From: Pseudomonas alloputida
GTDB lineage: Bacteria; Pseudomonadota; Gammaproteobacteria; Pseudomonadales; Pseudomonadaceae
DNA length: 64,000 bases
Reading direction: 5' to 3'
Assembly (NCBI RefSeq): GCF_021283545.2
Contig: NZ_CP128540.1
Location: 2,515,501-2,579,500, forward strand
In this document: in pieces, positions 4,814 through 56,129 of the stretch
How the letters are laid out: each line of letters opens with the position of its first letter
How positions within the stretch are numbered: position 1 is the stretch's first letter
The notes under the pieces: model-generated
What the model was told of the DNA's origin: nothing
What the model saw: the letters and a program-made list of their open reading frames with translations, nothing else
The model's database searches: none
Translations under genes and position numbers: made by a program

Positions 4814-4835
4814 CCTTTCTCCTGTATTGACCACT

Positions 4836-6110: not shown

Positions 6111-6144
6111 ACACTGCCCAAAAATTCTCGCCAAGGAGCTGCCC

Positions 6145-7557: not shown

Positions 7558-7610
7558 ACCTGGCGCAAAGGGCTGTGCGCGGGCGTGCCTGGCAGGCTAG
7601 ACTGCCGGGC

Positions 7611-8453: not shown

Positions 8454-8585
8454 CTGTCTTGAGCCCTGGCGATTCGCGTGTCGCAGCATGAAACAGCTCA
8501 ATGGGAACATCCCTATACCGATGGGTATACGGGGCCGGCATAGCCAATAGGGCAGGGCTATACAGCCCCTGTGGGCATGGTGTGT

Positions 8586-9458: not shown

Positions 9459-9593
9459 CAGACCTCCAGGGTATGGTGGGAGATTCATTTGATATTGGAC
9501 GGTCGTCAGGGTCTCGCGCAATCCTTCAGCAATCAAGTAAACGCATCACTCGGGCCTGCAACTGAAAGCCCGACCTGACGGGACCTGGCAACA
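9459..9593. promoter_or_regulatory. catR-catBCA divergent promoter and CatR operator
   Basis: Intergenic control region between two divergent start codons. Near catR it contains the element ACCTCC-N8-GGTGGG type sequence (CCTCCAGGGTATGGTGGG, 9463-9481), which matches what I remember as the CatR repression binding site with a LysR T-N11-A core. The weaker activation site would lie between it and the catB promoter. Exact -35 and -10 boxes are not assigned. Confidence 0.7.
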
Positions 9594-42317: not shown

Positions 42318-42881
42318 CTAGCGCATGAAGTGCACCTTGCCGGTGTCATCATTGCCCATGTAAATGCCATACACCCCGGCCTGCCGCTCGAGGATGTAGC
42401 GTTCGAGAATTTGCCGGATGGCCGGGTAGTAGATTTCATCCCAAGGGATTTCATCCGGTTCGAAGAACTTGTACGCCAGCGTCTCCGGCCCATACTGCCC
42501 GGTCTCTTCGGTAACGATGGCACGGAAGATGATGTACACCTCGCTGATCTTTGGCACGCTGAAGATCGAATACGGCGAGACGATGTCTGCACGTACGCCG
42601 CTTTCTTCCCATACCTCGCGCAGCGCCGCCTGTTCGGTGGTTTCGCCAGCCTCCATGAACCCGGCAGGCAAGGTCCAGGTGCCGGGGCGAGGGGGGATGG
42701 CGCGCTGGCACAGCAGGTACTTTCCATCGCGCTCGATGATGCAGCCGGCGATGATCTTGGGGTTGATGTAATGGATGTAGCCGCAGCCGGTACAATGCAG
42801 GCGTTCGTGGGTATCGCCTGTGGGAACGCCCCGGGCCAGTTCCTTGGTGCAGTGCGGGCAGTAGCGCGGGGCATTGGGCAT
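42318..42881 (-). CDS. Nudix hydrolase with N-terminal zinc ribbon
   Basis: Protein of 187 residues. The Nudix box is complete: GFMEAGETTEQAALREVWEE then SGV (about 73-95). An N-terminal zinc ribbon with CPHC and CTGC (residues 8-11 and 30-33) resembles that of NudC-type NADH pyrophosphatases, but the protein is shorter and lacks the NudC SQPWPFPxS motif, so the substrate is an unknown nucleoside diphosphate derivative. The start codon lies two bases after the GntR stop on the same strand, so it is probably cotranscribed with that regulator. Confidence 0.85.
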   Translation of the reverse strand: MPNAPRYCPHCTKELARGVPTGDTHERLHCTGCGYIHYINPKIIAGCIIERDGKYLLCQRAIPPRPGTWTLPAGFMEAGETTEQAALREVWEESGVRADIVSPYSIFSVPKISEVYIIFRAIVTEETGQYGPETLAYKFFEPDEIPWDEIYYPAIRQILERYILERQAGVYGIYMGNDDTGKVHFMR

Positions 42882-42883
42882 GA

Positions 42884-43636
42884 TCAGCGACCTATGCGGG
42901 GTTCCTTCAGGGCCAAGGGTTCGACAATGTCGCGCACCTTGGCGTTGTCATCCTGCTTCTGGCGCAGGTAGTCCAGGGCCACCTTGGCGGCGGCGCGGAC
43001 GTGGTCGACCGAGGCCTGGTGGGCCACCAGCGGGTCGCCGCCCTTGATGGCCTCGACGATCTTTTCCATTTCGCGGTTGCTGGCGCCGCGGCGGTTTTCC
43101 TGCGATACCGAGGTGGCGCGCAGGTAGCTGATGCGTGCTTGCAACTGGCGCAGCTGCTGGGCCGCCACCTGGTTGCCAGAGCCTTCCAGCAGCACATCGT
43201 AGAAACCTTGTACCGAGTCCAGCACCTGTTGCAACTCGCCTTCTTCCAGTGCTTCGCGGTTCACTTCCAGCGCGCGTTCCAGCGCACGGATGTCCTTGGC
43301 CTTGGCGTTGAGGGTGAACAGTTGCACGATCAGGCCTTCGAGCACACAGCGCAGCTCATAGATGTCACGTGCGTCTTCCAGGGTGATGATGGCCACGCGC
43401 GGGCCTTTGGCGTCGGCGAACTCGACCAGGCCTTCGGACTCCAGGTGACGCAGCGCTTCACGTACCGAAGTGCGGCTGACGCCGAGGCGGTCGCACAGGT
43501 CGCGCTCGACCAGGCGGTCGCCGGGCAACAGGTGAAAGTTCATGATTGCGGTGCGCAGCTTGTCGAGCACGATTTCGCGCAGAGTAACGGGGTTGCGGTT
43601 GACCTTGAAGCTGTCGTCGAGTGGCTGGCGTTTCAT
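42884..43636 (-). CDS. GntR-family regulator, FadR/FCD type
   Basis: Regulator of 250 residues. Winged helix-turn-helix at about 18-82 (LREIVLDKLRTAIMNFHLLP, then GDRLVERDLCDRLGVSRTSVREALRHLE) and a helical FCD ligand domain (about 95-220) with the metal/acid-binding arginine and histidine region ELRCVLEGLI and AHQASVDHV. It lies at the end of the putative heterocycle cluster. FCD-type GntR proteins bind short palindromes with a TGGTATACCA-like core, exactly the sequence at three promoters of this cluster, so it is the likely local repressor. Effector probably an intermediate of the pathway. Confidence 0.88.
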   Translation of the reverse strand: MKRQPLDDSFKVNRNPVTLREIVLDKLRTAIMNFHLLPGDRLVERDLCDRLGVSRTSVREALRHLESEGLVEFADAKGPRVAIITLEDARDIYELRCVLEGLIVQLFTLNAKAKDIRALERALEVNREALEEGELQQVLDSVQGFYDVLLEGSGNQVAAQQLRQLQARISYLRATSVSQENRRGASNREMEKIVEAIKGGDPLVAHQASVDHVRAAAKVALDYLRQKQDDNAKVRDIVEPLALKEPRIGR

Positions 43637-43724
43637 CAGGTGCGCTCTTTATGAGGCTGTTGCGCCAACATCGCGGAATGCCCCGAACCGAGGCTTTCCA
43701 TGCAGTGGTTCGAACAGCCCGTTG

Positions 43725-44114
43725 TTAACGGGTTGGCTCCGCATCGGCTTCGGCAAACGCTTCACGGGCCAGGCGGAAACTGTCCACCGCCGCGGGTACG
43801 CCGCAATAAATGCCGACCTGGAGCAGGATTTCGCGAATCTGTTCACGGCTCAGCCCATTGCGCAGGGCACCGCGAATGTGCAACTTGAGCTCGTGGGGCC
43901 TGTTGAGCGCGGAAATCATGGCCAAGTTTATCATGCTGCGCTCTTTCAGCGACAAGCCTTCGCGGCCCCAGACGTGACCCCAGCAATACTCGGTGACCAG
44001 CTCCTGCAACGGTTTGGTGAATTCATCTGCGTTCTGGATCGAGCGGTTGACGTAGTCCTCGCCCAGTACCTGGGTGCGGATTTTCAGGCCCTTTTCGTAC
44101 TTTTCATTGCTCAT
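43725..44114 (-). CDS. 4-carboxymuconolactone decarboxylase-like protein (PcaC family)
   Basis: Protein of 129 residues of the AhpD/CMD fold, the same length as PcaC and similar along its whole length (KYEKGLKIRTQVLGEDYVNR; ELKLHIRGALRNGLSREQIREILLQVGIYCGVPAA). It lacks the AhpD CxxC redox pair, so a decarboxylase or hydratase-like role is likelier than peroxidase. pca genes proper are not nearby; here it sits between the flavin-reductase operon and the GntR gene, suggesting it decarboxylates or isomerises an intermediate of the unknown pathway. ATG 44114 gives the family length. Confidence 0.83.
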   Translation of the reverse strand: MSNEKYEKGLKIRTQVLGEDYVNRSIQNADEFTKPLQELVTEYCWGHVWGREGLSLKERSMINLAMISALNRPHELKLHIRGALRNGLSREQIREILLQVGIYCGVPAAVDSFRLAREAFAEADAEPTR

Positions 44115-44185
44115 GTGCAGTACTCCGGCATAAAAAAGGGGCCGCAACCGAGGGTGAGACGATTAGCGCGACCCCTGAAAACAGG

Positions 44186-44217
44186 GGCATCTTCGCGGGC
44201 AAGCCCGCGAAGATGCC
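44186..44217. repeat. Perfect REP-like hairpin inside the catabolic cluster
   Basis: GGCATCTTCGCGGGC, two bases AA, GCCCGCGAAGATGCC: a perfect 15-bp inverted repeat between the flavin reductase and PcaC-like genes. A second small hairpin, CCCCTG-AAAA-CAGGGG (44172-44187), overlaps its left edge. No T run; may attenuate or stabilise the transcript. Confidence 0.75.
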
Positions 44218-44236
44218 AACATCGACTCAAGATGTA

Positions 44237-44722
44237 TCAGCCAAGTGGCGGCAGGGCGCCGAGCTTGCCCTTGTGGTACACCATCGGGGTCATCGGCTGC
44301 TCAGGCAACACCAGGTTCTTCACCGCGCCGACAATGATCGCGTGGTCACCGCCGTCGTACTCGCGCCACAATTCGCACTCGATGATCGCCGTGGCCTTGG
44401 CCAGCAGGGGGTTGCCCAGCTCGCTCAGGTGCCACTCGACGCCCTTGGCCTTGTCCTTGCCCTTGCCTGCGAAGGCATACGCCTCGGCGGTCTGGTCGGC
44501 GGACAGCAGGTGGATGGCGAACTGCTTGCTGTCGCGCAGGATCGGGTAGGTGTCGGAGGCGTAGTTGGGGCAGAACAGCACCAGCGCCGGGTCGATCGAC
44601 AGCGCGCTGAATGCACTGGCGGTGATGCCGACGATGCCGCCGTCGGCGTCCAGGGTGGTCACTATCGTGACGCCGGATGGGAAGGAGCCCATCACGTCTT
44701 TGTAGATGCCGGGTTCGATCAT
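44237..44722 (-). CDS. RutF-like flavin reductase (first copy)
   Basis: NAD(P)H:flavin oxidoreductase of 161 residues with a split-barrel FMN-binding fold. Family segments are GSFPSGVTIVTTLDADGGIVGITASAFSALSIDPALVLFCPN and GGDHAIIVGAVKNL. It would supply reduced FMN or FAD to a flavin monooxygenase, as RutF does for RutA. It aligns without gaps to the second copy at 49097 (about two thirds identical by eye). Thirteen bases separate it from the aldehyde dehydrogenase stop, so it is the last gene of the DUF1185-hydrolase-ALDH operon. Confidence 0.87.
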   Translation of the reverse strand: MIEPGIYKDVMGSFPSGVTIVTTLDADGGIVGITASAFSALSIDPALVLFCPNYASDTYPILRDSKQFAIHLLSADQTAEAYAFAGKGKDKAKGVEWHLSELGNPLLAKATAIIECELWREYDGGDHAIIVGAVKNLVLPEQPMTPMVYHKGKLGALPPLG

Positions 44723-44734
44723 CTCGTGTTCCTC

Positions 44735-46216
44735 CTAGCGCATCACGAACGGGTCGGGCATCGGCGCGGTGGACAAGTTGATCCACACGGTCTTCAGCTC
44801 GGTATAGGCCAGCACCGAATCGATGCCGCTCTCACGGCCGTAGCCGCTGTTCTTGAAACCACCTATCGGTGCCATGGCCGACACGGCACGGTAGGTGTTG
44901 ACCCAGATGATCCCCGAACGCACGTCGCGGGCCAGGCGGTGGGCACGGCCCAGATCGCGCGTCCAGATGCCGGCAGCCAGGCCGAATTGCGAGTCGTTGG
45001 CCATGGCCAGGGCTTCTTCTTCGGTCTTGAAGCGAATTACTGCGGCGACCGGGCCGAACACTTCTTCCTGCATGATGGTCATCGCGTTGCTGTCGCACTC
45101 GAACAGGGTCGGCTCGTAGAACCAGCCGTCACCTTCAACGTCGGCACGCTTTCCGCCCATGTGCAGTTTGGCGCCTTCGGCCTTGGCCGCCGCCACCAGG
45201 CCTTCGACGACTGCCAGCTGTTGCGCGGTGGCCATCGGGCCCATTTCGCTGGCGTCGTCCTGCGGGTTGCCGATGCGGATGCGCTTGGCGCGGGCAATCA
45301 GGCGCTCGACGAACTCGTCGAAGATTTCATCCTGCACCAGCAGGCGCGAGCCGGCCACGCAGCTTTGCCCGGACGCGGCATAGATGCCGGCCACGGCGCC
45401 ATTGATGGCGCTGTCCAGGTCGGCGTCGGCGAAGATGATGTTCGGCGACTTGCCGCCCAGTTCCAGCGACAGCTTGGCGAAGTTTTCGGCGCTGCTGCGT
45501 ACCACGTGGCGGGCGGTGGCGGCACCGCCGGTGAAGGCGATCTTGCGCACCAGCGGGTGGCGGGTCAGCGCCGCGCCGGTGCTGGGGCCGTAGCCGGTGA
45601 CCACGTTGACCACACCGGCCGGGAAGCCGGCCTCAAGGGCCAGTCGGGCCAGCTCGAGGATGGTTGCCGAGGCGTGCTCGGACGGTTTGAGCACGATGGT
45701 GTTGCCGGCAGCCAAGGCCGGCGCCAGCTTGATCGCGGTGAGGTACAGCGGGCTGTTCCACGGGATGATCCCGGCAACCACGCCGATTGGCTCGTGCACG
45801 GTGTAGGCGAACAGGTCGGGTTTGTCCAACGGCAGGGTGCCGCCTTCGAGCTTGTCGGCCAGGCCCGCAGTGTAGTGGAAGAACTCCGGCAGATAGCCGA
45901 CCTGACCGCGGGTTTCGCGGATCAGCTTGCCGTTGTCACGGCTCTCCAGTTGGGCCAGGTGCTCCTTGTTCTCGGCAATCAGGTCACCCAGACGACGCAG
46001 CAGCTTGCCGCGGGCGGTAGCGGTGATGCTGCGCCACGCCTTGCTGTCGAAGGCACGCTGGGCGGCCTGAACGGCCAGCTCCACATCGGCTTCATCGGCG
46101 TCGGGCAGTTGCGCCCAGGCCTGGGCGGTGGCCGGGTTGAGGCTGTCGAAGGTCTTGCCGCTCTGGGCATCGCGCCATTGGCCGTCGATGCACATCTGGA
46201 AACGAACGAGGGTCAT
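44735..46216 (-). CDS. NAD(P)-dependent aldehyde dehydrogenase
   Basis: ALDH-superfamily enzyme of 493 residues oxidising an aldehyde to its acid. Catalytic C286 (GQSCVAGSR), general base E252 (LELGGKSPN) and oxyanion N154 (IPWNSPL) are present. The overall pattern is that of the betaine/gamma-aminobutyraldehyde/semialdehyde group (ALDH9/ALDH2-like). The start codon overlaps the hydrolase stop (ATGA), so the two are translationally coupled. In a heterocycle pathway it would oxidise a semialdehyde formed after ring opening; substrate unknown. Confidence 0.88.
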   Translation of the reverse strand: MTLVRFQMCIDGQWRDAQSGKTFDSLNPATAQAWAQLPDADEADVELAVQAAQRAFDSKAWRSITATARGKLLRRLGDLIAENKEHLAQLESRDNGKLIRETRGQVGYLPEFFHYTAGLADKLEGGTLPLDKPDLFAYTVHEPIGVVAGIIPWNSPLYLTAIKLAPALAAGNTIVLKPSEHASATILELARLALEAGFPAGVVNVVTGYGPSTGAALTRHPLVRKIAFTGGAATARHVVRSSAENFAKLSLELGGKSPNIIFADADLDSAINGAVAGIYAASGQSCVAGSRLLVQDEIFDEFVERLIARAKRIRIGNPQDDASEMGPMATAQQLAVVEGLVAAAKAEGAKLHMGGKRADVEGDGWFYEPTLFECDSNAMTIMQEEVFGPVAAVIRFKTEEEALAMANDSQFGLAAGIWTRDLGRAHRLARDVRSGIIWVNTYRAVSAMAPIGGFKNSGYGRESGIDSVLAYTELKTVWINLSTAPMPDPFVMR

Positions 46217-47046
46217 GCAACAATCCCCTTGGCGGATTCGGTGAGGGTGCGGGCTTGGGTGAGGAAGTCCAGCAGCATCTTGTTGACTTCACGCGGTGCT
46301 TCCACCGGCATCATATGCCGTTGCTCGGCGAGGACCACACTGCGTGCGCCAGGAATGCAGGCGGCGAGCTGGCGGGTCATGGCCGGGGTGGAGCCCGAGT
46401 CGAGTTCGCCGGTGGCGATCAGCGTCGGCACCTGGATACTGCCCAGGTCGTCGGCGCGGTACATGTCCTGAGTGGCGAACAGCGAATAAGTGGTGTGGTA
46501 GCCCTGCGGGTCGTTGCTCGCCAGTACCTGGCGAATGGCGGCGACCTGCGCGGGGTTGGCAGCCTTGTATTCACGGCTGAACCAGCGGTCCAGGGCAGCA
46601 TCGACGTTGGCGTCTGGGCCCAGCTCCGCCGCTTGGGCAGCGCGGGCGATCACCCCGGCACTTTGCTCGGGGGTGCGGTTGAACACGCTGTTGAGCACGA
46701 CCAGTGCAGCCAGGCGCTGCGGGTAATTGAGGGCGAATGCACGGGCAACCAGGCCGCCCATGGAGAAGCCGATCACGGTGGCTTGTGCAATTTGCAGGTG
46801 GTCAAGCAGTTCGGCGAGCTGGTCGGCATAGCCTTCCAGCGGTGTGTCGGCGGCCGGTACGCGGCTTTGACCGTGGCCGAGCATGTCGTAGGCGATGACG
46901 CGGTAGTCGTTGGCCAGGCCAACGAACTGACCGCCCCACATTTCCTTGTTCAGGCCCACGCCGTGGATCAGCACCACGGGTTGGCCCTGGCCGACATCCA
47001 GATAGCTGGTGCCGGCAGGTGTGCGTTCAGCGACAGGCTGAATCAT
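46213..47046 (-). CDS. Alpha/beta hydrolase (RutD/PcaD-like)
   Basis: Serine hydrolase of 277 residues with nucleophile S95 (GFSMGG), acid D216 (ATGELDSGSTP) and H244 (EQRHMMPVEAP). The oxyanion HGVGLNKEMWG motif is typical of 3-oxoadipate enol-lactonase and RutD types. It likely cleaves an ester, lactone or enamine/amide intermediate. The ATG at 47046 gives the family length; the in-frame upstream part is not conserved. It lies 68 bases downstream of the DUF1185 gene and overlaps the ALDH start by four bases. Confidence 0.83.
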   Translation of the reverse strand: MIQPVAERTPAGTSYLDVGQGQPVVLIHGVGLNKEMWGGQFVGLANDYRVIAYDMLGHGQSRVPAADTPLEGYADQLAELLDHLQIAQATVIGFSMGGLVARAFALNYPQRLAALVVLNSVFNRTPEQSAGVIARAAQAAELGPDANVDAALDRWFSREYKAANPAQVAAIRQVLASNDPQGYHTTYSLFATQDMYRADDLGSIQVPTLIATGELDSGSTPAMTRQLAACIPGARSVVLAEQRHMMPVEAPREVNKMLLDFLTQARTLTESAKGIVA

Positions 47047-47114
47047 GGAGGGCGCTCCTTGAAGGTCGGGCGCGGCGGGTAAGCACGCCACGCCCCGGCC
47101 CGTCTTGGTTGTTG

Positions 47115-47711
47115 TTATTGAGCGTTGGCTTTTTCGGCAGCCAGTTCTTCCAGGTCGATGTAACGGTTGCCGATGCGCGGGTGCAGGCGGCCGCCATCGG
47201 CTGCGCCCAGGACCACGACGATTTCATCGGCACGCGGGGCGTCTTCGATCTGCATTTCCAGGGTGATGTAGTGCGAACGCAGGCCTTCGTCGTCCTTCTG
47301 CATCATCGGGATCTGGATCGAAGTGCCTGGGCCGCCGCGCTTGTTGGTGAAGCTCAGGTAGCTCTTGGCCTGTACCGCCTCGCGGTAGTGGTTGCCGAAG
47401 CGCAGGGTATGGATCACGGCCGAGGCGTGCTCGATTTCGCCATCGGCGCCGACGACGGCGGCCTTACCGTAGGCCTCGATCTTGTCGGCGCCGCCAATGG
47501 CAGCAGTCAGGCGCTCGACCATCAGGGCACCCAGCTCCGAGCAGTTGGCGCGAATTTCCGGCTTCAGATCTTCAACGAAACCGCGACCGGCCCATGGGTT
47601 CTTGATCACGACGGCCAGGCCGACCATGGTCACCGGCTTGTCGGTGGCTTTGCCGCCTTCGATGCGGGTCTCTTCGGAGTAGGTGACGATCTTGCGGATT
47701 TCGAAACTCAT
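47115..47711 (-). CDS. DUF1185/AA_synth (PF06684) family protein
   Basis: Protein of 198 residues recognised as PF06684 from MSFEIRKIVTYSEETRIEGGKATDKPVTMVGLAVVIKNPWAGRGFVEDL and LGALMVERLTAAIGGADKIEAYGKAAVVG. Structures of family members show a variant of the chorismate mutase/YjgF-type fold, and a role in amino-acid metabolism was only suggested. By position it could be the functional counterpart of RutC (a YjgF protein) or a ring-acting amidohydrolase in this cluster. First gene of its operon; a TGGTATACCA operator lies about 40 bases upstream. No signal peptide. Confidence 0.85.
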   Translation of the reverse strand: MSFEIRKIVTYSEETRIEGGKATDKPVTMVGLAVVIKNPWAGRGFVEDLKPEIRANCSELGALMVERLTAAIGGADKIEAYGKAAVVGADGEIEHASAVIHTLRFGNHYREAVQAKSYLSFTNKRGGPGTSIQIPMMQKDDEGLRSHYITLEMQIEDAPRADEIVVVLGAADGGRLHPRIGNRYIDLEELAAEKANAQ

Positions 47712-47744
47712 GGATGGCTCCTGGTGAGGGTTATCAGCTCTTGT

Positions 47745-47768
47745 TGTCTGATGGTATACCATAATATT
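47745..47768 (-). promoter_or_regulatory. Operator 1 of the heterocycle cluster (DUF1185 promoter)
   Basis: Core TGGTATACCA (47752-47761, perfect palindrome) inside TGATGGTATACCATAATA. On the minus strand it overlaps a possible -10 (TACCAT) 16 bases after a -35-like TTGCAC. The same element occurs at 49633-49656 and 49811-49828. Confidence 0.7.
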
Positions 47769-47844
47769 TGTTGTGCAAGAGGTGTCAGGAAATTTCTCTT
47801 GCCGGGGGACGAAAGGTGGCCTGATGCCTTGATTTCTCTGTTGT

Positions 47845-47886
47845 CTGTACTGGCCTCTTCGCGGGCTTGCCCGCTCCCACAGGGAC
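47845..47886. repeat. REP element
   Basis: CTTCGCGGGCTTGCCCGCTC hairpin with TGTACTGGC and CCCACAGGG flanks, between the DUF1185 and LLM genes. Confidence 0.8.
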
Positions 47887-47898
47887 TGCACAGGTTTC

Positions 47899-47945
47899 AA
47901 AAAAAAGCCCGCTCACGCAGGCCGAAGGGGCCCACGGGAGCGGGC
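47899..47945 (-). terminator. Terminator of the flavin reductase-LLM operon
   Basis: On the minus strand GCCCGCTC ... GAGCGGGC closes a stem with a second inner GGCC-rich stem and is followed by eight Ts, 31 bases after the LLM stop codon. It separates this operon from the DUF1185 operon. Confidence 0.85.
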
Positions 47946-47975
47946 GCGTCCCGCAATGATTCAGGCAATGGGAAT

Positions 47976-49016
47976 TCAGGCGAACGCCGGCACCACTTCC
48001 TTGATGAACAGCTCGAGCGACTTCTTCTTCTCGGCGTGGGGCAAGCTGTTGTCGCACCAGAAGCTGAACTCGTCGACGCCCAGTTCCTGGTAGTACTTGA
48101 TGCGCGCGATGATTTCTTCCGGGGTGCCGATCATGGTGTTCTTGCGGATGTTCTCCAGCTGGAACGCCGGCACTTCGGCGAACTTCGACTCCGGGCTCGG
48201 CTCCAGGAAGCCATTCACCGGGGTCGTCTTGTTGCCGAACCAGGCATCGAAGGTGCGGTAGAAGCGCGAGATCGCCTGGGCACCGACCTTCCAGCCTTCC
48301 GGGTCGGACGGGCTGTGCACGTGGGTGTGGCGCAGCACCATCAGTTGCGGGCGCGGCACGTCCGGGTTGTTGTCCAGGGCGGCCTGGAACTTGTTCTTCA
48401 GGTCCAGCACTTCTTCGTCACCCTTCATCAGCGGGGTGACCATGACATTGCAACCATTGGCAACGGCGAAGTTGTGCGAGTCCGGGTCGCGGGCGGCGAT
48501 CCACATGGGCGGCGTGGCGTTGAACGGCTTCGGTACGCTGGTGGAGGTCGGGAACTTGTAGACTTCACCGTCGTGGGCGTAGTCGCCTTCCCACAGCTTG
48601 CGCACCACCGGCACCATCTCGCGCAGCGCCTTGCCGCCGTCGGTGGCCGGCATGCCACCTGCCATGCGGTCGAACTCGAACTGGTAGGCACCGCGGGCCA
48701 GGCCCACTTCCATGCGGCCGTTGCTGATCACGTCGAGCAGGGCGCATTCGCCAGCGACGCGGATAGGGTTCCAGAACGGCGCAATGATGGTGCCGGCGCC
48801 CAGGCGGATCTTCTCGGTGCGCGCGGCCAGGTAGGCCAGCAGCGGCATCGGGCTTGGCGAAATGGTGTATTCCATGGCGTGGTGTTCACCGATCCACACG
48901 GTGCTGAAACCGCCGTCTTCGGCCATCAGGGTCAGTTCGGTCAGGTCTTCGAACAGCTGGCGGTGGCTGACCTGTTCATCCCAACGTTCCATGTGCACGA
49001 ACAACGAAAATTTCAT
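47976..49016 (-). CDS. LLM-class flavin-dependent monooxygenase
   Basis: Bacterial-luciferase-like monooxygenase of 346 residues using reduced flavin and oxygen. The N-terminus MKFSLFVHMERWDEQVSHRQ, the GFSTVWIGEHHAMEYTISPSPMPLLAYLAARTEKIRLG strand-helix pair and the ISNGRMEVGLARGAYQFEF phosphate/flavin segment place it in the alkanal/RutA-type LLM group; the protein is a single TIM-barrel, like RutA. It probably hydroxylates or opens a ring using flavin from the adjacent RutF-like reductase 80 bases upstream in the same operon. Substrate unknown. Confidence 0.87.
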   Translation of the reverse strand: MKFSLFVHMERWDEQVSHRQLFEDLTELTLMAEDGGFSTVWIGEHHAMEYTISPSPMPLLAYLAARTEKIRLGAGTIIAPFWNPIRVAGECALLDVISNGRMEVGLARGAYQFEFDRMAGGMPATDGGKALREMVPVVRKLWEGDYAHDGEVYKFPTSTSVPKPFNATPPMWIAARDPDSHNFAVANGCNVMVTPLMKGDEEVLDLKNKFQAALDNNPDVPRPQLMVLRHTHVHSPSDPEGWKVGAQAISRFYRTFDAWFGNKTTPVNGFLEPSPESKFAEVPAFQLENIRKNTMIGTPEEIIARIKYYQELGVDEFSFWCDNSLPHAEKKKSLELFIKEVVPAFA

Positions 49017-49096
49017 GGGTTTTTCCTCAACGCTTGTTATTGCCCGTCAGTCAATCGGGCTTCAATTTGGGAGCGGGCTGCGTCCAACTGCAGGCT

Positions 49097-49582
49097 TCAG
49101 GCAAAGGCCGGCAGGCTGGCCATCTTGCCGCGGCAGTACACCATGGGCCGTGGTGCTTCTGCCGGGACGATCAGGTTGTGCACCTTGCCGACCATGATGG
49201 CGTGGTCGCCACCTTCATATTCACGCCACAGTTCGCATTCGATGACGGCGGTGGCACCGGCCAGGATCGGATTGCCCAGTTCACTCAGGCTCCACTCGAT
49301 GCCGCTGGCCTTGTCCTTGCCCTTCTTGGCGAACGCGTAGGCTTCGGCCTGCTGTTCACCGGACAGCAGGTGAATGGCAAAGCGCTTCTGCTTGATCAGT
49401 ACCGGGTAGGAGTCGGAGGTGTAGTTGGGGCAGAACAGCACCAGCGGCGGGTCCATCGACAGGGAGGAGAAGGCGCTGGCGGTCAGGCCGACGACCGAGC
49501 CGTCGTCGTCCTGGGTGGTGATGACGGTAACGCCGGACGGGAAGGAGCCCAGAACGTTCTTGTAGACAGTTGCGTCGATCAT
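49097..49582 (-). CDS. RutF-like flavin reductase (second copy)
   Basis: Second 161-residue split-barrel flavin reductase (GSFPSGVTVITTQDDDGSVVGLTASAFSSLSMDPPLVLFCPN; GGDHAIMVGKVHNL). It heads the operon with the LLM monooxygenase and is its natural flavin supplier. Aligns end to end without gaps to the copy at 44237. The ATG at 49582 gives the same N-terminus as that copy (MIDATVYKNVLGSFPSGVT against MIEPGIYKDVMGSFPSGVT); the longer in-frame extension would overlap the operator. Divergent from the NCS1 permease. Confidence 0.88.
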   Translation of the reverse strand: MIDATVYKNVLGSFPSGVTVITTQDDDGSVVGLTASAFSSLSMDPPLVLFCPNYTSDSYPVLIKQKRFAIHLLSGEQQAEAYAFAKKGKDKASGIEWSLSELGNPILAGATAVIECELWREYEGGDHAIMVGKVHNLIVPAEAPRPMVYCRGKMASLPAFA

Positions 49583-49898
49583 CGGGAGTACCTCTGAAGG
49601 GCTGCGGTGGTCCGCGGTTTTTATCGTTGATGTGTCTGATGGTATACCGTAATACCTATTTTGCAAGCGGAATTTTCAACCCTGCGTTTTCGCGATGAAC
49701 GGCCCAAAGCCGCGAAAAACGTGGCCTTGAGCGGTGAGGCGGTTTGTCGCAGGGGTTTTGCAAGCGGATCAGTGGCCGTTTTTTCATGCGGATCAGTGTT
49801 GTCAAAAGTTTGGAATACCATAATATGGTCCGCAGCTGAGAGGCCGCCTTGATGCGGTTTCCTTACAAAGATAAAAACGACCTTTCGAGCTGAAAACC
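49583..49898. promoter_or_regulatory. Divergent control region flavin reductase/NCS1 permease, operators 2 and 3
   Basis: 316 bases without a gene. Operator 2, TGATGGTATACCGTAATA (within 49633-49656), faces the flavin reductase-LLM operon, with TTGCAA as a -35 on the minus strand. Operator 3, TGGAATACCATAATATGGT (49811-49829), faces the permease and overlaps a good promoter: -35 TTGTCA (49799-49804), 16-base spacer, -10 TAATAT (49821-49826). Direct repeats TTTTGCAAGCGGA (49659-49671 and 49756-49768) and GCGGATCAGTG (49764-49774 and 49788-49798) lie between. Confidence 0.72.
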
Positions 49899-51302
49899 AT
49901 GTCCCAACCGTCGTCGCAACACCAGTTTGTCGAGAATCACACGGTCGATTACGTTCCACCTGCCGAGCGCCATGGGAAGGCGCGCGACCTGTTCACCCTC
50001 TGGTTCAGTACCAACATCGCGCCACTGCCTATCGTGACCGGCGCCATGGTGGTCCAGGTGTTCCACCTGAACCTGTTGTGGGGCCTGATCGCCATCGTGC
50101 TGGGCCATCTGGTCGGGGGCGTGGTCATCGCCCTGGCCTCTGCACAGGGGCCGCAGCTGGGCATTCCGCAAATGGTGCAAAGCCGTGGCCAGTTTGGCCG
50201 CTACGGTGCCTTGCTGATCGTGTTCTTCACCGCGCTGATCTATGTCGGCTTCTTTATTTCCAACATTGTCCTGGCAGGCAAGACCATCCACGGCATCGCC
50301 CCGAGCGTGCCGATGCCCGGCGCGATCGTGATAGGCGCCCTGAGCGCTACTGCCATCGGCGTGATCGGCTATCGTTTCATCCACATTCTCAATCGCATCG
50401 GTACCTGGGTGATGGGTTCGGCTTTGCTGGCCGGTTTCATCATGATGTTCATCCAGGACCTGCCGGCAGACTTCTTCAGCCGCGGCGCATTCAACCTGTC
50501 GGGCTTTATCGCCACCGTGTCGCTGGGCACCATCTGGCAGATCAGCTTCTCGCCGTACACGTCAGACTATTCGCGCTATCTGCCGCGTGAAGTGGGCATT
50601 GCCAAACCGTTCTGGGCTACCTACCTGGGCGCCACCCTGGGCACCATCCTGTGCTTCAGCTTTGGTGCAGTGGCCGTGTTGTGCGTCCCGCAAGGCACCG
50701 ACGCAATGGACGCGGTGAAGCAGGCTACCGGCTGGCTGGGCCCGATCCTGATGGTGCTGTTCCTGCTCAACATCATCAGCCACAACGCCCTCAACCTGTA
50801 TGGCGCGGTGCTGTCGATCGTGACCGCAATCCAGACCTTCGTGGCCGAGTGGACGCCGAGCGTCAAGGTACGGGTGATTCTGGCCTCGGTCATTCTGGTG
50901 GGCTGCGGGATGGTGGCACTGAATGCCTCGGCGGACTTCATCGGCCAGTTCATCGGCCTGATCCTGGCGCTGCTGCTGGTGCTGGTGCCTTGGGCTTCGA
51001 TCAACCTGATCGATTTCTACCTGATCAAGAAGGGCCAGTACGACATCGCCTCGATCTTCAGTGCAGACGGCGGCATCTATGGCCGCTTCAACCACCACGC
51101 GATCATTGCCTATGCCTGCGGCATCCTGGTGCAGCTGCCGTTTGCCAATACTTCGCTGTATGTGGGGCCGTACTCGAACATTGTCGAAGGGGCCGACCTG
51201 TCGTGGCTATTCGGCTTGCTGGTGACGGTGCCGCTGTATTACTGCCTGGCCACACGCGGGAAGGCGGTTAACAGTGCGCGGGTTATCAGCGTCAACGACT
51301 GA
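49899..51302 (+). CDS. NCS1-family nucleobase/heterocycle permease
   Basis: Twelve-helix inner-membrane permease of 467 residues of the cytosine/purine/allantoin class (RDLFTLWFSTNIAPLPIVTGA, SAQGPQLGIPQMVQSRGQFG, YTSDYSRYLP). It lies divergently from the flavin reductase-LLM operon and its promoter carries the cluster's shared operator, so it most likely imports the cluster's substrate, which points to a small N-heterocycle such as a pyrimidine, purine, hydantoin or pyridine-like compound. Paralogue of the permease at 36274. Translation start ATG 49899 has no strong ribosome site (GACCTTTCGAGC). Confidence 0.87.
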   Translation: MSQPSSQHQFVENHTVDYVPPAERHGKARDLFTLWFSTNIAPLPIVTGAMVVQVFHLNLLWGLIAIVLGHLVGGVVIALASAQGPQLGIPQMVQSRGQFGRYGALLIVFFTALIYVGFFISNIVLAGKTIHGIAPSVPMPGAIVIGALSATAIGVIGYRFIHILNRIGTWVMGSALLAGFIMMFIQDLPADFFSRGAFNLSGFIATVSLGTIWQISFSPYTSDYSRYLPREVGIAKPFWATYLGATLGTILCFSFGAVAVLCVPQGTDAMDAVKQATGWLGPILMVLFLLNIISHNALNLYGAVLSIVTAIQTFVAEWTPSVKVRVILASVILVGCGMVALNASADFIGQFIGLILALLLVLVPWASINLIDFYLIKKGQYDIASIFSADGGIYGRFNHHAIIAYACGILVQLPFANTSLYVGPYSNIVEGADLSWLFGLLVTVPLYYCLATRGKAVNSARVISVND

Positions 51303-51371: not shown

Positions 51372-52292
51372 TCAGGCATGCCCGCGCCCGTCATGCTGCC
51401 TGCGATACGCCCCCGGCTGCACCCCCACTGCCTTGGCGAACGCCCTGGTGAATGCGGCCACCGACTGATACCCCACCTGCGCGCCTACCTGCTCAACGGT
51501 ATGCCCCGCCTGCAGCAACTGGCTGGCATGGCGCATGCGCAGCGCCAGCAGCACTTGTCCCGGTGACTGCCCGGCCAGCTCGCTGAAACGCTTGAAAAAA
51601 GCCGACCGTGACAACCCGGTGCAAGCGGCCATGTTCTCCATGGTCCAGGTTTGCCCCGGATGCTCGATCAATTGCTCAAGCAATCCGGCAAATGCCGGCT
51701 GGCGGGCGAGGGCGACCAGCCCGCCCAGCGATTGCCCTGCGTGCACCTGCTGGCGCAGCACGTACAGGAACAACAAGTGCGTCAGCCGTTCCAGTAGCAT
51801 CTGTGATGGCCCAGCATCTCGCCGGCATTCTTCCAGGATCAGCCCGAACAGCGCCCGCGCTGCGCTGCCGCTGGGATCTTCAGCGCGTAACAAGATCCAG
51901 TCAGCGAGACCCTCGACAATCAGCGAGCAGAGGCCCGACTGAAAATGGAAGAAGCCGCAGACCAAGCCAACGCCGTCGGCGGCCTGGCTATCCAGCGCCT
52001 GCATGGCCTGGCGCGGCTGGGCACAGGCGTCGACCGGGTCCTGATCGCTGGACAAGCGATAGGCCAGGTCACGCAGCAGGAACACGGCATCACCTTTCTC
52101 CAGGCAAATGGCCTGCGGCTGGCCGTCAATGTGCAGCCAGCAATGGCCTTGCACCACCAGATGAAAGCTGGCCCGGCCCATGCCTTGGGTACTGGCATGC
52201 CAGCCGCCGCAATAGCGGCCTACATGAAACAGGCTGGCATCGAGCTCCAGGCTTTCTAATAACCAATCGACAAGCGGGCTGGACGAAATCAT
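51372..52292 (-). CDS. AraC-family regulator with cupin N-terminus
   Basis: Regulator of 306 residues: N-terminal cupin_6-type domain (about 20-175; ASFHLVVQGHCWLHIDGQPQAICLEKGDAVFLL) and C-terminal AraC helix-turn-helix (about 205-300; ENMAACTGLSRSAFFKRFSELAGQSPGQVL and VGAQVGYQSVAAFTRAFAKAVGVQP). Such regulators often control a divergent small redox or AhpD-type gene; here it is divergent from the AhpD-like gene at 52395 with 102 bases between. Probably controls that gene and perhaps the ABC cluster behind it. Confidence 0.85.
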   Translation of the reverse strand: MISSSPLVDWLLESLELDASLFHVGRYCGGWHASTQGMGRASFHLVVQGHCWLHIDGQPQAICLEKGDAVFLLRDLAYRLSSDQDPVDACAQPRQAMQALDSQAADGVGLVCGFFHFQSGLCSLIVEGLADWILLRAEDPSGSAARALFGLILEECRRDAGPSQMLLERLTHLLFLYVLRQQVHAGQSLGGLVALARQPAFAGLLEQLIEHPGQTWTMENMAACTGLSRSAFFKRFSELAGQSPGQVLLALRMRHASQLLQAGHTVEQVGAQVGYQSVAAFTRAFAKAVGVQPGAYRRQHDGRGHA

Positions 52293-52394
52293 CTAATGCA
52301 AAGACTCAGGAGCAAGGAAAGGCGACTGACGAATATGGAGGGTAGTTCTTATAACCAACAGACTGTAGTGACACTCATCAAAGGAGATCACTGC

Positions 52395-52955
52395 ATGTCC
52401 GCGCGCATTACTTTACACACGCTGCAGAGCGCCCCGGAAGCGGCACGGCCGTTCCTTGAGAACGCGCAGAAGAATTCCGGCTTCATCCCCAACCTGCTCG
52501 GCGTGCTGGCCAACGCCCCGGCGGCGCTGGAAACCTACGTGACCGTTTCGGCACTCAATGGCAAGTCTGAGCTTGGCCTGGCCGAGCGTGAAGTGGTGCA
52601 ACTGATCGCGGCCACCCAGCATGGCTGCGACTTTTGCGTGGCCGGCCATACGGCCGTCGCGCTGAACAAGGCCAAGCTGCCGCAGGAGGTGGTCGATGCT
52701 CTGCGTGCCCGTGGCGAACTCCCGAACGCCCGCTACGAAACCCTGGCCGCCTTTGCCCGCGAAGTGATCGCCACCCGTGGCAATGTCAGCGAAGCCACCT
52801 ACCAGGCCTTCCGTGAGGCCGGCTTCAGTGAAGGCAACGCCTTGGAGGTGATTCTGGGCGTAAGCCTCGCAACCCTGTGCAACTTTGCTAATGTTTTCGC
52901 CCAGACGCCACTCAACGAAGAGCTTGGCAAATACCGCTGGCAGCCTTCTGCGTAG
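52395..52955 (+). CDS. AhpD-like carboxymuconolactone decarboxylase-family protein
   Basis: Protein of 186 residues with the AhpD redox motif C78-x-x-C81-x3-H85 (HGCDFCVAGHTAVA), so a thiol-based peroxidase/disulfide reductase or related activity is likely, unlike the PcaC-like protein at 43725 that lacks it. Start of the family pattern FIPNLLGVLANAPAALETYV (about 30-49) is clear. ATG 52395 follows AAGGAG by 8 bases; an open frame upstream of it is not conserved. Divergent from the AraC gene and 99 bases before the acyl-CoA-dehydrogenase-like gene, with a REP-type element between. Confidence 0.85.
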   Translation: MSARITLHTLQSAPEAARPFLENAQKNSGFIPNLLGVLANAPAALETYVTVSALNGKSELGLAEREVVQLIAATQHGCDFCVAGHTAVALNKAKLPQEVVDALRARGELPNARYETLAAFAREVIATRGNVSEATYQAFREAGFSEGNALEVILGVSLATLCNFANVFAQTPLNEELGKYRWQPSA

Positions 52956-52987
52956 CCCACCTGTGATAATGGCCATTACCAGGCCGT

Positions 52988-53033
52988 TGTAGGAGCGGCC
53001 TTGTGCCGTGAACGGGCCGCAGAGCGGCCCCGG
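52988..53033. repeat. REP-like element, second Pseudomonas type
   Basis: TGTAGGAGCGGCCTTGTGCC then GGGCCGCAGAGCGGCCCC, a different REP family from the CGCGGGNNANCCCGC type elsewhere in the window. Confidence 0.7.
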
Positions 53034-53054
53034 CGTTATCAAAGGAGCAAGACC

Positions 53055-54119
53055 ATGCAAGATTGTGCATTTCGACACTGGCTGGATGCCAATGCCGAGG
53101 CCATCGACCGGGGCCTGTGCGAGCCGCAGCAGGTACTGGCGCAGATCGCAGAATCGCAGCTGCTGCGCACGGGGGTCGACCCAGCGCTGGGCGGTACGGG
53201 CGGGCAGGTGACCGACGCGGTCGAGGCCATCGCCGCCATTGCCAGCCGCTCATTGGCCGCGGCTTTCGTCTGCTGGGGCCAGCGTGCCTTCATCGAATAC
53301 CTGCTGCACAGCCCCAACCAGCCCCTGCGTGAGCGCCTGCTGCCGCGGCTGTTGACCGGTGAATTGGCCGGTGCCACCGGGCTGTCCAACGCCATGAAGT
53401 TCCTGTCCGGTATCGAAGCGCTGCAGGTGCGTGGCCGCCCGGCAGCCGATGGCTGGCACCTGGAAGGGCGACTGCACTGGGTGACCAACTTGCGTAAAAG
53501 CGGCTTCGTGGTGGCGGCGGCCATCGAGGATGAAGCCGGCGGCGCGCCTTTTGTGCTGGCCATTCCTTCCGACGCTCAAGGCCTGGAGCGCTCTGATGAT
53601 CTACAACTGATGGGCCTGCAGTCGAGCAACACGGCAGCACTGGCTTTTCACCAGGTGCCGCTGGCCCGCGACTGGTTGCTGCATGAAAATGCACGCGAAT
53701 TCCTGCCACGGGTACGCCCGGCATTCCTGGCGCTGCAATGTGGCATGGCCATTGGCCTGGCGCGACGAGCGCTGGAAGAGGTTCAGGCGCATCTGCAAGG
53801 CCGAGCCTCGTTCCTCGACGAAGCCCGTCAGGTGCTTAGCGAACGCCTGGAAAACACCGTCAGCGAACTCAAGCATGGCTTGCTCGACGGTCGCTTCCAG
53901 CAGCAGCCGGCGGCCTTGTTCAAGCTGCGCATCATCCTGGCTGAAAGTGCTGCCGACGCGGTACAACTGGAGTTGCAGGCCAGTGGCGGCAAGGCTTACC
54001 TCTGCGAATACGGCGAAGGGTTTGCCCGCCGATGGCGGGAGTCGGCCTTCGTGCCGATCGTCACGCCCAGCCTGGTGCAATTGCGCGCCGAACTGCAACG
54101 CCAGGCAGGCGTTGCATGA
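53055..54119 (+). CDS. Acyl-CoA-dehydrogenase-fold flavoenzyme (SfnC/DszC-like)
   Basis: Protein of 354 residues with the acyl-CoA dehydrogenase fold (GELAGATGLSNAMKFL; WHLEGRLHWVTNLRKSGFVVAAA). It has no clear catalytic glutamate motif and no CoA-type context; members linked to sulfonate or nitrate-type ABC importers, such as SfnC and DszC-like proteins, are flavin-dependent monooxygenases instead. Its start at 53055 has AAAGGAG eight bases upstream. Its stop overlaps the ABC ATPase start (ATGA), so it is the first gene of a coupled four-gene operon. Could desulfonate or oxidise the imported compound; this is inference. Confidence 0.75.
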   Translation: MQDCAFRHWLDANAEAIDRGLCEPQQVLAQIAESQLLRTGVDPALGGTGGQVTDAVEAIAAIASRSLAAAFVCWGQRAFIEYLLHSPNQPLRERLLPRLLTGELAGATGLSNAMKFLSGIEALQVRGRPAADGWHLEGRLHWVTNLRKSGFVVAAAIEDEAGGAPFVLAIPSDAQGLERSDDLQLMGLQSSNTAALAFHQVPLARDWLLHENAREFLPRVRPAFLALQCGMAIGLARRALEEVQAHLQGRASFLDEARQVLSERLENTVSELKHGLLDGRFQQQPAALFKLRIILAESAADAVQLELQASGGKAYLCEYGEGFARRWRESAFVPIVTPSLVQLRAELQRQAGVA

Positions 54120-54937
54120 GCGCGGTGTTGCTGGAGGCCCGTGACATCCGCTTGGGCTACCCGCGTGAGGGTGGTTGGCAGCAGGTGCTGGCGCAGTTCG
54201 ACCTGCAGCTGGCACCAGGTGAGGTCGTGAGCATCCTTGGCCCCAGTGGTGTGGGCAAGTCCAGCCTGCTGCGGGTGCTGGCAGGGCTGCAGCAGCCTGG
54301 CGGCGGCAGCGTGAGCTTGCACGGCCAGCCGCTGCAGGGGCCGCACCCGCGTCTGGCGGTGGCTTTTCAGGATCCCAGCCTGCTGCCATGGCTGAGCCTG
54401 GAGAAAAACGTCGCCTTCGGCCTGGACTTCGCCCGTCAGCCCAGGCTGGCGGATGCCGAACGCCGTGCACGCATCGACCATGCGATTGAGGCTGTGGGCC
54501 TGGCCCACGCCCGTGGCCAGTACCCGGCGCAGTTGTCTGGCGGCATGGCCCAGCGCACCGCGCTGGCCCGCTGCCTGGCACGCCAGCCCGAAGTCTTGTT
54601 GCTGGATGAACCCTTCGGTGCGTTGGATGAGGTGACCCGCGCCGACATGCAGCAGTTGCTGCTGCAACTGATCGCCACGCACAAGACCGCGGCCGTGTTG
54701 ATCACTCACGATATCGACGAAGCCCTGCTGCTGTCAGACCGGGTTCTGCTACTGGGCAACCTCCCAGCGCACATCCTCGGGCAGTGGCATATCGACCTGC
54801 CGCAACCACGGACGCAGCGGGTCGAAGAACTGGGCGCCTTGCGTATTGAAATCCTCAAAACCCTTCGGCGGGCAAGCCGCACAGTCGAACCTACCCCAAC
54901 CTCGTTGCCCTCGGAGGCTGTCCATGTGCATGGATGA
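54116..54937 (+). CDS. ABC transporter ATPase, nitrate/sulfonate/taurine type
   Basis: ATPase of 273 residues (SsuB/TauB/NrtD-like). Walker A GPSGVGKSS (about 43-51), Q-loop AFQDPSLLPW, signature LSGGMAQRTALAR and Walker B VLLLDEPFGALDE are intact, followed by the switch H in LITHDIDEAL. Start overlaps the stop of the preceding gene by four bases. The end overlaps the binding-protein start by 14 bases. It powers the importer formed with the permease at 56129. Confidence 0.92.
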   Translation: MSAVLLEARDIRLGYPREGGWQQVLAQFDLQLAPGEVVSILGPSGVGKSSLLRVLAGLQQPGGGSVSLHGQPLQGPHPRLAVAFQDPSLLPWLSLEKNVAFGLDFARQPRLADAERRARIDHAIEAVGLAHARGQYPAQLSGGMAQRTALARCLARQPEVLLLDEPFGALDEVTRADMQQLLLQLIATHKTAAVLITHDIDEALLLSDRVLLLGNLPAHILGQWHIDLPQPRTQRVEELGALRIEILKTLRRASRTVEPTPTSLPSEAVHVHG

Positions 54938-56129
54938 CTGCTGTTCCTCTTCTTCGCGTCGTGACTTTCTCAAGCTCGGCGCCATGCTCACTGCTGCCGG
55001 TGCATTGCCGTTGCTGTCGAGCTTGCAGGCGCGTGCCGCTGCCGAGCCGGACGCGCCGGTGCGCATCGGCTACCTGCCGATCACCGATGCCACGCCGCTG
55101 CTGGTGGCACATAACAACGGCCTGTTCGAGGCCGAAGGCATCAAGGCCGAGCGCCCGGTGCTGCTGCGCAGCTGGGCGCAGGTGATCGAGGCATTCATCT
55201 CCGGCCAGGTCAATGTCATCCACCTGCTTTCGCCGATGACGGTATGGGCGCGCTATGGCAGCAAGGTGCCAGCCAAGGTGGTGGCCTGGAACCACGTGGG
55301 CGGTTCGGGCCTGACTGTTGCGCCGGATATATCCGCCGTGAAACAGCTCGGTGGCAAGACAGTGGCCATTCCGTTCTGGTACTCGATCCACAATGTGGTA
55401 CTGCAACAGTTGCTCAACGACAACGGCCTGACGCCCGTGTCGAAGCCGGCCAATGCGCAACTGGCCGCCAACGAAGTCAACCTGCTGGTGCTGCCACCGT
55501 CCGACATGCCACCCGCTCTGGCCAGCAAGCGCATTGCCGGCTACATCGTTGCCGAGCCGTTCAACGCACTGGCCGAGAACCTCAAGGTAGGCCGCGTGCA
55601 GCGCTTTACCGGCGATGTATGGCGCAACCATGCGTGCTGCGTGGTGTTCATGCACGAGCATGACCTGAATAACCGCCCGGAGTGGTCGCAGAAAGTGGTC
55701 AACGCCATCGTCAAGGCCCAGCAATGGACCCGTGACCATCGCACCGAAGCCGCCGCACTGCTGTCCAGGGCGGGCCCCAACAAGTACACCCCGCACGAGC
55801 CTGCGGTGCTGACCAAGGTCCTGGCGCCCGCCGCCGAAGACCGTGCTGGCTACATTGCCAGTGGCGCCATTCGCCATCAGCAGTGGGACGAAAAACGCAT
55901 CGACTTCCAGCCATACCCGTTCCCGAGTTACACCGAAGAGCTGGTCAAGCGCCTGAAAACCACCCTGATCGAAGGCGACAATACGTTTCTTTCCGGGCTG
56001 GATCCGGCGTATGCCGCCCGCGACCTGGTCGACGATCGCTTCGTGCGTAATGCCATCGCGACAGTAGGTGGTCCGTCGGTGTTCGGCATTGCCGACAACT
56101 TCGAGCGTAGCGAGGAGTTTGCGGTCTGA
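54924..56129 (+). CDS. Tat-exported ABC substrate-binding protein, NrtA/SsuA type
   Basis: Periplasmic binding protein of 401 residues. The N-terminus MCMDDCCSSSSRRDFLKLGA has a twin-arginine motif SRRDFLKLG followed by a hydrophobic stretch, so it is folded before export. It carries three cysteines in the first seven residues, which is unusual for a Tat signal. The mature part reads VRIGYLPITDATPLLVAHNNGLFEAEGI, the NMT1/NrtA-like fold of nitrate, sulfonate and taurine receptors. GGAGG lies seven bases before the ATG. Ligand unknown; the tight operon with the flavoenzyme suggests an organosulfur or nitrogenous compound. Confidence 0.87.
   Translation: MCMDDCCSSSSRRDFLKLGAMLTAAGALPLLSSLQARAAAEPDAPVRIGYLPITDATPLLVAHNNGLFEAEGIKAERPVLLRSWAQVIEAFISGQVNVIHLLSPMTVWARYGSKVPAKVVAWNHVGGSGLTVAPDISAVKQLGGKTVAIPFWYSIHNVVLQQLLNDNGLTPVSKPANAQLAANEVNLLVLPPSDMPPALASKRIAGYIVAEPFNALAENLKVGRVQRFTGDVWRNHACCVVFMHEHDLNNRPEWSQKVVNAIVKAQQWTRDHRTEAAALLSRAGPNKYTPHEPAVLTKVLAPAAEDRAGYIASGAIRHQQWDEKRIDFQPYPFPSYTEELVKRLKTTLIEGDNTFLSGLDPAYAARDLVDDRFVRNAIATVGGPSVFGIADNFERSEEFAV

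Follow-up and report, generated by a model that had tools for sequence, protein, structure and literature searches.

In a 64,000-nt stretch of Pseudomonas alloputida DNA (NZ_CP128540.1, positions 2,515,501-2,579,500; genome size 6.44 Mb), which we call the window, one block of genes encodes a divergently transcribed NCS1 permease and, in leftward order, a short flavin reductase (Fre2), a luciferase-like monooxygenase (LLM), a DUF1185 protein, an alpha/beta hydrolase, an aldehyde dehydrogenase (ALDH), a second short flavin reductase (Fre1), a CMD protein and a GntR regulator. Which compound does such a set of proteins degrade? An earlier note on this DNA took the block for a Rut-like pathway acting on another small N-heterocycle. 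The coordinates that it gave for the nine open reading frames held, as did their families, which Pfam reports as FCD/GntR, CMD, Flavin_Reduct (twice), Aldedh, alpha/beta hydrolase, AA_synth (DUF1185), Bac_luciferase and NCS1 (PF02133). The functional block is wider than was noted. A NUDIX gene lies 2 bp beyond the GntR gene and travels with it in other genomes, and is therefore part of the block, while the regulon extends to genes about 140 kb outside the window.

We consider it very probable that the block is the Pseudomonas version of a catabolic regulon for trigonelline (N-methylnicotinate), a betaine common in plants. What we observe in its favor is homology, a shared gene set, an operator and the places where it stands, and co-occurrence across genomes.

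Trigonelline clusters in other bacteria

A trigonelline pathway in Acinetobacter baylyi ADP1 was reportedly described by Perchat et al. in 2018. In passages of later papers, the TgnA/TgnB oxygenase system is credited with opening trigonelline's aromatic ring (PMC8269262) and the DUF1185-family protein HcdD is called a homologue of TgnF from the A. baylyi pathway (PMC7913881), and a figure legend places TgnB among the luciferase-like monooxygenases (PMC11354265). When annotated plasmids were searched with the LLM and DUF1185 proteins of the window, we found a plasmid of Acinetobacter sp. PK01 (NZ_CP094644.1) whose record names tgnA, tgnB and tgnC, in a stretch that encodes DUF1330, GntR, DUF1185, alpha/beta hydrolase, TgnA, TgnB, TgnC, NCS1, succinic semialdehyde dehydrogenase (SSADH) and CMD proteins. 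All families of the window block are present in this stretch, NUDIX only as a degenerate domain of TgnA. The identity of the window proteins to their PK01 counterparts is 79% for CMD, 56% for both DUF1185 and NCS1, 53% for ALDH, 48% for LLM, 37-38% for the reductase domain, 36% for GntR and 35% for the hydrolase. The view that no characterised pathway has this set of genes is thus contradicted, both by the trigonelline pathway, which includes the DUF1185 homologue TgnF, and by an annotated tgn cluster of the same gene complement.

The ALDH and the DUF1185 protein agree with this assignment. The window ALDH is of the TgnC type both in an ALDH tree and by identity (52.9% to the annotated PK01 TgnC and 56.6% to a Sinorhizobium meliloti ALDH, compared with 37% to the PK01 SSADH). 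The DUF1185 protein is a TgnF homologue and is 58-63% identical to three rhizobial copies. The hydrolase is a TgnD candidate, of the same family as the one in PK01 (35%) and with a similar place; in five further loci its counterparts are 44-57% identical. Core tgn gene sets also occur in Rhizobium etli, S. meliloti, Mesorhizobium, Leisingera, Gemmobacter and Pantoea. One S. meliloti copy sits on a megaplasmid, in line with the trigonelline genes on pSym that are named in the title of a 1991 paper by Goldmann, as given in the reference list of PMC6297676. In one Mesorhizobium locus (L097), the alpha/beta hydrolase and the flavin reductase are fused into a protein of 595 aa, with both domains recognised by Pfam, a fusion that links two steps; in a second Mesorhizobium locus (L144), the corresponding position is occupied by a gene of about that length.

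Among the matches listed in the open-licence literature, none dealt with a cluster for trigonelline in Pseudomonas, with the operator of such a cluster, or with an NCS1 permease for trigonelline. PMC10949508, a random barcode transposon sequencing (RB-TnSeq) study of P. putida, makes no mention of luciferase, flavin reductase, carboxymuconolactone or trigonelline.

Lineage of the LLM oxygenase

In a midpoint-rooted tree of 27 LLM proteins, the window protein falls in a clade of eight Pseudomonas proteins with those of Arthrobacter and of genomes G197 and G131. Support of 100/100 sets the window and TgnB clades, taken together, apart from a third clade made up of Rhizobium N324 and Pseudomonas G335; for the entire window clade, support is only 85/78, and the G131 and G125 rows are long. 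We aligned the residues of 26 of these proteins, dropping the partial G281 protein, and found 85 positions that are invariant across the window and TgnB clades. Identity, tree and these shared residues all place the window LLM in the TgnB lineage. Between the two clades there are nine consistent differences at positions at least 90% conserved within each (N/S, T/A, M/L, Y/F, A/G, T/S, Q/M, I/L and Q/N). We take this to mean that the window LLM acts on the same substrate class as TgnB and probably on the same substrate. It is the only strong TgnB relative in its genome: a search for a better one found the window LLM at 49% identity and the next match at 29%.

Both members of the third clade retain 54 of the 85 invariant residues, and both depart from another 25, including H8, H181, H230, Y253, W259, F260, W320 and D322; several of these are aromatic, histidine or acidic. 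Because it differs at 25 otherwise invariant positions, the third-clade LLM probably acts on another substrate. It lies in a third Tgn-like cluster (L137, Pseudomonas G335, 927-6448; L117, Rhizobium sp. N324, 1904-9603) that contains CMD, hydrolase, LLM, ALDH, a 320-330-aa reductase, DUF1185 and a regulator of another type, and that lacks the operator described below.

A shared operator and a dispersed regulon

The promoters of the block contain a 15-base palindromic operator, TGGTATACCRTAATA. There are just two exact sites in the whole genome, and both are in the block, as TGGTATACCATAATA and TGGTATACCGTAATA in the DUF1185 and Fre2 promoters. Allowing one mismatch adds four genome matches: one precedes the NCS1 gene, and the other three are at 2421100-2422451, where two overlap and form one palindrome; the reversed control pattern has 0 matches. 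The sites at 2421100-2422451 belong to two promoters about 140 kb from the block, that of a ribBA-type gene and that of an ABC transporter with a solute-binding protein. In other pseudomonads (L056, L063, L075, L138), the ribBA and transporter genes adjoin tgn-type genes.

Across the Pseudomonas loci that we fetched, a match of at least 14/15 is found upstream of DUF1185 in 62/64 regions (some places were fetched twice), upstream of Fre2 in 72/78, upstream of ribBA in all 26 places and upstream of the binding protein in 23/34. In 1560 shuffles of the Fre2 upstream regions, which preserve single-base content only, the best match was 12/15. Since the consensus was read from the window, the Pseudomonas counts are partly circular, and other genera are the independent test. 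Outside Pseudomonas, 13 of 14 TgnB-clade loci have a match of at least 13/15 upstream of DUF1185, and PK01 has a further 13/15 pair before its SSADH gene. For the three non-Pseudomonas loci with window-clade LLMs, a match at this level precedes DUF1185 in 1/4 places. In G131 the region upstream of DUF1185 has no operator (best 9/15), because the LLM gene comes first in that cluster and an exact operator stands in front of it; with this site, two of the three loci have the operator. The two third-clade loci have no match of at least 12/15 in 18.6 and 12 kb. In other DUF1185 contexts the operator was found in 1/10 places; three places in a Sulfitobacter locus score 9-11. The single positive (L136, Pseudomonas G437, 4130-4720) is a second DUF1185 gene in a genome that also bears the regulon; it is 74% identical, has a 14/15 operator and, by eye, adjoins an alpha/beta hydrolase gene.

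The window GntR protein is 36-44% identical to the GntR proteins of five proteobacterial tgn-type clusters and 31% to that of Arthrobacter. The GntR/FCD protein is likely a repressor that would bind TGGTATACCRTAATA. Scans of the block for promoters (2 found, 1.7 expected) and terminators (14 found, 9.7 expected, standard deviation 3.1) gave numbers near chance, and both promoter-like sites overlap operators.

We then counted the parts of the regulon in a sample of 249 Pseudomonas genomes, with an LLM match threshold of E at most 1e-100. The LLM is present in 139 genomes (partial in G337 and G371), a close DUF1185 in 140, and both in 138; the co-occurrence lists were compiled by hand and leave out two genomes with a distant DUF1185 only. 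The exact operator occurs in 140 genomes, comprising 138/139 LLM-positive and 2/110 LLM-negative ones, and the sole LLM-positive genome without it, G508, is 73% complete. All three features occur together in 138/249 genomes. In the 138 genomes with both genes, the distance between LLM and DUF1185 is below 2.5 kb in 31, 2.5-25 kb in 47, 25-100 kb in 26 and more than 100 kb on one contig in 9, and in 25 the genes are on different contigs. As the genes co-occur at all distances, the oxygenase and lower-pathway units are kept jointly without adjacency. The genomes are related, and the counts are of genomes, not independent events. Relatedness inflates Fisher p values, so our argument uses the absence of linkage and the operator instead of p.

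A probably divided TgnA and a possible role in flavin supply

The 310-aa TgnA of PK01 consists of a flavin reductase domain followed by a stretch without a Pfam name. Residues 172-302 of this protein align with the window NUDIX protein at 25% identity over 143 residues (46 bits, E 7e-11 in a single comparison). The Nudix box is degraded in PK01 TgnA and intact in the window protein (GFMEAGETTEQAALREVWEESGV). The window has the reductase domain twice (37-38%), with Fre1 and Fre2 69% identical to each other; the two-domain 310-aa form is absent, and its second domain is matched by the stand-alone NUDIX protein. Pseudomonas thus probably has counterparts of both halves of TgnA as separate genes, the reductase one twice.

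DHBP synthase is encoded four times in the genome, and the operator-linked ribBA is therefore an additional copy. NUDIX and ribBA may point to control of flavin supply. A more tentative possibility, which we consider less likely than not, is that Pseudomonas uses trigonelline through a dispersed regulon that includes an arm for supplying flavin mononucleotide (FMN): the GntR repressor of the oxygenase would also switch on a dedicated ribBA copy, and NUDIX would turn flavin adenine dinucleotide (FAD) into FMN, or otherwise tune the flavin pool, for the FMNH2-dependent ring-cleaving oxygenase.

The same genome has another two-component LLM cluster with its own DHBP synthase gene at 3047466-3054510 (L153, 9466-16510). 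It encodes LysR-like, LLM (29% to TgnB), flavin reductase, small EthD-like, ALDH and Lrp-like proteins, several of them named by eye. Clusters for FMN-dependent monooxygenases may recruit ribBA repeatedly.

Proposed pathway

We infer the substrate, the reactions, repressor binding and the roles of the CMD and NUDIX proteins, the reactions by analogy with the characterised Acinetobacter pathway. The NCS1 permease and the unlinked ABC transporter would import trigonelline. Fre1 or Fre2 would supply FMNH2 to the LLM oxygenase, which is predicted to cleave the C5-C6 bond of the pyridinium ring. The ALDH would convert a hydroxybutyrolactone product to N-methylformamidomethylene-succinate, from which the alpha/beta hydrolase would release succinic semialdehyde, methylamine, formate and CO2. 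Oxidation of succinic semialdehyde to succinate would then fall to a GabD-type SSADH whose gene lies outside the block, helped by the DUF1185/TgnF protein. The FCD GntR protein is expected to repress all units through TGGTATACCRTAATA, including those with the extra ribBA and the ABC transporter, at a distance of about 140 kb. The general scheme of the earlier note is supported, in which a small N-heterocycle would enter through the NCS1 permease, have its ring opened by flavin-dependent chemistry and then pass to an ALDH.

A dedicated SSADH gene is absent from the block; the genome encodes an SSADH (TgnE) 62% identical to that of PK01 elsewhere, at 214950-216359. Two clusters with window-clade LLMs, those of G131 and Arthrobacter, do include an SSADH, which fits the proposed end product.

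Gene order and features of the block

Gene order, whose comparison the earlier note had called for, bears out the block as a unit. The order Fre2-LLM-DUF1185-hydrolase-ALDH-Fre1-CMD-GntR-NUDIX is complete in 51 of 80 fetched loci, with NUDIX after GntR in all 51; in the remaining 29, DUF1185 is outside the fetched stretch, and some stretches stop at a contig end. This conservation is far beyond chance. The gap between the LLM and DUF1185 matches ranges from 151 to 1020 bp in the 51 full-order loci. Features of the window are listed in Table 1; the start codons of DUF1185 (47711), hydrolase (47046), CMD (44114) and Fre2 (49582) were picked by eye.

Table 1. Genes and operators of the block, with positions in the window.
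Feature	Position	Strand	Evidence
Zn-ribbon NUDIX hydrolase	42318..42881	-	Pfam NUDIX 77.3 bits and Zn_ribbon_Nudix
GntR/FCD regulator, likely repressor (predicted binding)	42884..43636	-	Pfam FCD and GntR
CMD (PcaC-like) protein	43725..44114	-	Pfam CMD; 78.6% identity to CMD of Acinetobacter PK01 tgn stretch
Short flavin reductase Fre1, 161 aa	44237..44722	-	Pfam; 37% to reductase domain of PK01 TgnA
TgnC-type aldehyde dehydrogenase	44735..46216	-	52.9% to PK01 TgnC; ALDH tree
Alpha/beta hydrolase, TgnD candidate	46213..47046	-	Pfam; 35-41% to hydrolases of eight tgn-type clusters
DUF1185 (PF06684) protein, TgnF homologue	47115..47711	-	Pfam 239.7 bits; 56% to PK01
Operator, DUF1185 promoter, exact consensus	47752..47766	+	Overlaps promoter-like site 47761-47788 (-)
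LLM oxygenase, TgnB-type	47976..49016	-	Pfam Bac_luciferase; 48% to PK01 TgnB; tree
Short flavin reductase Fre2, 161 aa, paired with LLM gene	49097..49582	-	Pfam; 38% to PK01 TgnA reductase domain
Operator, Fre2-LLM promoter, exact consensus	49640..49654	+	
Third operator, 1 mismatch, precedes NCS1 gene	49811..49825	+	Overlaps promoter-like site 49799-49826 (+)
NCS1 permease, likely trigonelline importer	49899..51302	+	Pfam PF02133; 55.6% to PK01 and 56.9% to Pantoea tgn-type cluster permeases

Inverted repeats resembling the P. putida repetitive extragenic palindromic (REP) element (TCGCGGGCTTGCCCGC...) occur at 47850-47950, in the gap between LLM and DUF1185, and at 44186-44217, after Fre1. 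Adjoining the block at 51372-56129 are genes for an AraC-type regulator, an AhpD-like protein, an acyl-CoA-dehydrogenase-like protein, an ABC ATPase and a substrate-binding protein of the sulfonate or nitrate type; all except the AhpD-like one were named by eye from the sequence.

Alternative readings

Several observations weigh against trigonelline as the substrate. The window LLM is 45-55% identical to the TgnB-clade proteins compared and belongs to a separate clade with Arthrobacter, G131 and G197, and we know of no assayed member of that clade. The hydrolase is only weakly conserved across tgn-type clusters, and the SSADH gene is not within the block. Arthrobacter, whose LLM is the closest one outside Pseudomonas (77%), has a distant permease (27%) and no site in 19 kb that matches the operator at 12/15 or better, and one TgnB-clade locus, the 3-kb piece L106, is also without the operator. 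In one pseudomonad (L062, 11315-13392), two genes come directly after the LLM gene, one isochorismatase-like (named by eye) and one for a second NCS1 permease (39%); the operator is present before the LLM gene there too. Finally, the DUF1185 family is not confined to tgn clusters: passages in two papers report it in a 7-hydroxycoumarin cluster, where no stimulating effect was found (PMC7913881), and beside branched-chain amino acid genes (PMC2954203).

The alternative that fares best is a Tgn-like pathway for some other N-substituted or unsubstituted pyridine-3-carboxylate, such as an N-alkyl nicotinate or a nicotinamide derivative, in which the chemistry and the C4 end product would be unchanged. 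The separate position of the window LLM clade speaks for it, as does the third clade in Rhizobium N324 and Pseudomonas G335, whose cluster has the same helper genes, from which it follows that the gene set has diversified. However, the window block shares its operator and its kind of regulator with the TgnB clade, its CMD and NCS1 proteins are 79% and 56% identical to those of the annotated tgn cluster, and just nine consistent LLM differences, mostly conservative, separate the clades. We regard another substrate of this kind as unlikely.

The original proposal, a Rut-like pathway acting on pyrimidines, hydantoins or lactams, has in its favor that a single block holds an LLM oxygenase, a reductase, a hydrolase and a nucleobase-type permease. 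The family scores lead us to reject Rut membership. Against the RutA model (TIGR03612) the window LLM scores 24.4 bits with a cut-off of 498.3, and it is the weakest of ten RutA-matching stretches in its own genome. The reductases that had been called RutF-like reach only 65.3 and 62.3 bits (cut-off 254.75) and are outscored by the HsaB, FerA and 4-hydroxyphenylacetate hydroxylase reductase models. With the PcaD model the supposed RutD-like hydrolase reaches 181.8 bits (cut-off 255.85), roughly double its RutD score (91.5 bits, cut-off 238.5), both below cut-off. RutG is a NAT/NCS2 permease and the window permease is NCS1 (PF02133), and Pfam found no RutB-type isochorismatase domain among the ten proteins scanned. 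The gene set and operator are, moreover, those of tgn clusters, and we consider a Rut-like pathway highly improbable. A protocatechuate-like aromatic branch has scarcely any likelihood either: the CMD protein comes just under the PcaC cut-off (152.1 bits against 155.7) and the hydrolase has the PcaD score given above, but both scores are below the equivalog cut-offs, and homologues of both proteins are found in tgn-type clusters, a context that explains their presence.

Comparison with known systems

For trigonelline as the substrate, the kind of pathway is already known, and nearly this gene set has been characterised. New is the Pseudomonas variant, with its split reductase and NUDIX genes, two reductases, dispersed regulon and flavin-supply gene. 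An apparently unknown heterocycle pathway of 139/249 sampled Pseudomonas genomes becomes a specific prediction of trigonelline use, and the diagnostic operator locates the regulon even where its genes are scattered. DUF1185, CMD, NUDIX and an extra ribBA are tied to one physiological process, which aids the annotation of poorly understood families.

With the Rut pyrimidine pathway, the window block has in common the logic of a two-component flavin oxygenase and an alpha/beta hydrolase; it differs in having no match at the level of RutA, RutD or RutF, no RutB-type domain, and a permease of another family. The cluster on Arthrobacter dokdonellae plasmid pDCT5 (L096) has an LLM of 77% identity, a permease annotated as one for cytosine, and DUF1185, hydrolase, ALDH, flavin reductase, GntR, NUDIX and SSADH; unlike the window block, it has riboflavin kinase, tautomerase and two DUF1185 genes, its permease is the distant one mentioned above, and it has no matching operator. 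A plasmid cluster of Burkholderia multivorans (L142) has the ABC transporter, second reductase, GntR, DUF1330, DUF1185, hydrolase, reductase, LLM, ALDH, NCS1 and CMD genes adjacent; there is no SSADH in the stretch that we fetched. It is compact and in a single place, whereas the ABC transporter and ribBA of the window genome are about 140 kb from the block.

The tgn stretch of Acinetobacter PK01 shares with the window block GntR, DUF1185, alpha/beta hydrolase, flavin reductase, LLM, ALDH, NCS1 and CMD, and has the same operator upstream of DUF1185. In contrast to PK01, the window block probably has TgnA split into short reductases, in two copies, and a stand-alone NUDIX protein, its SSADH is elsewhere, and in Pseudomonas the oxygenase and lower-pathway genes are separable units.

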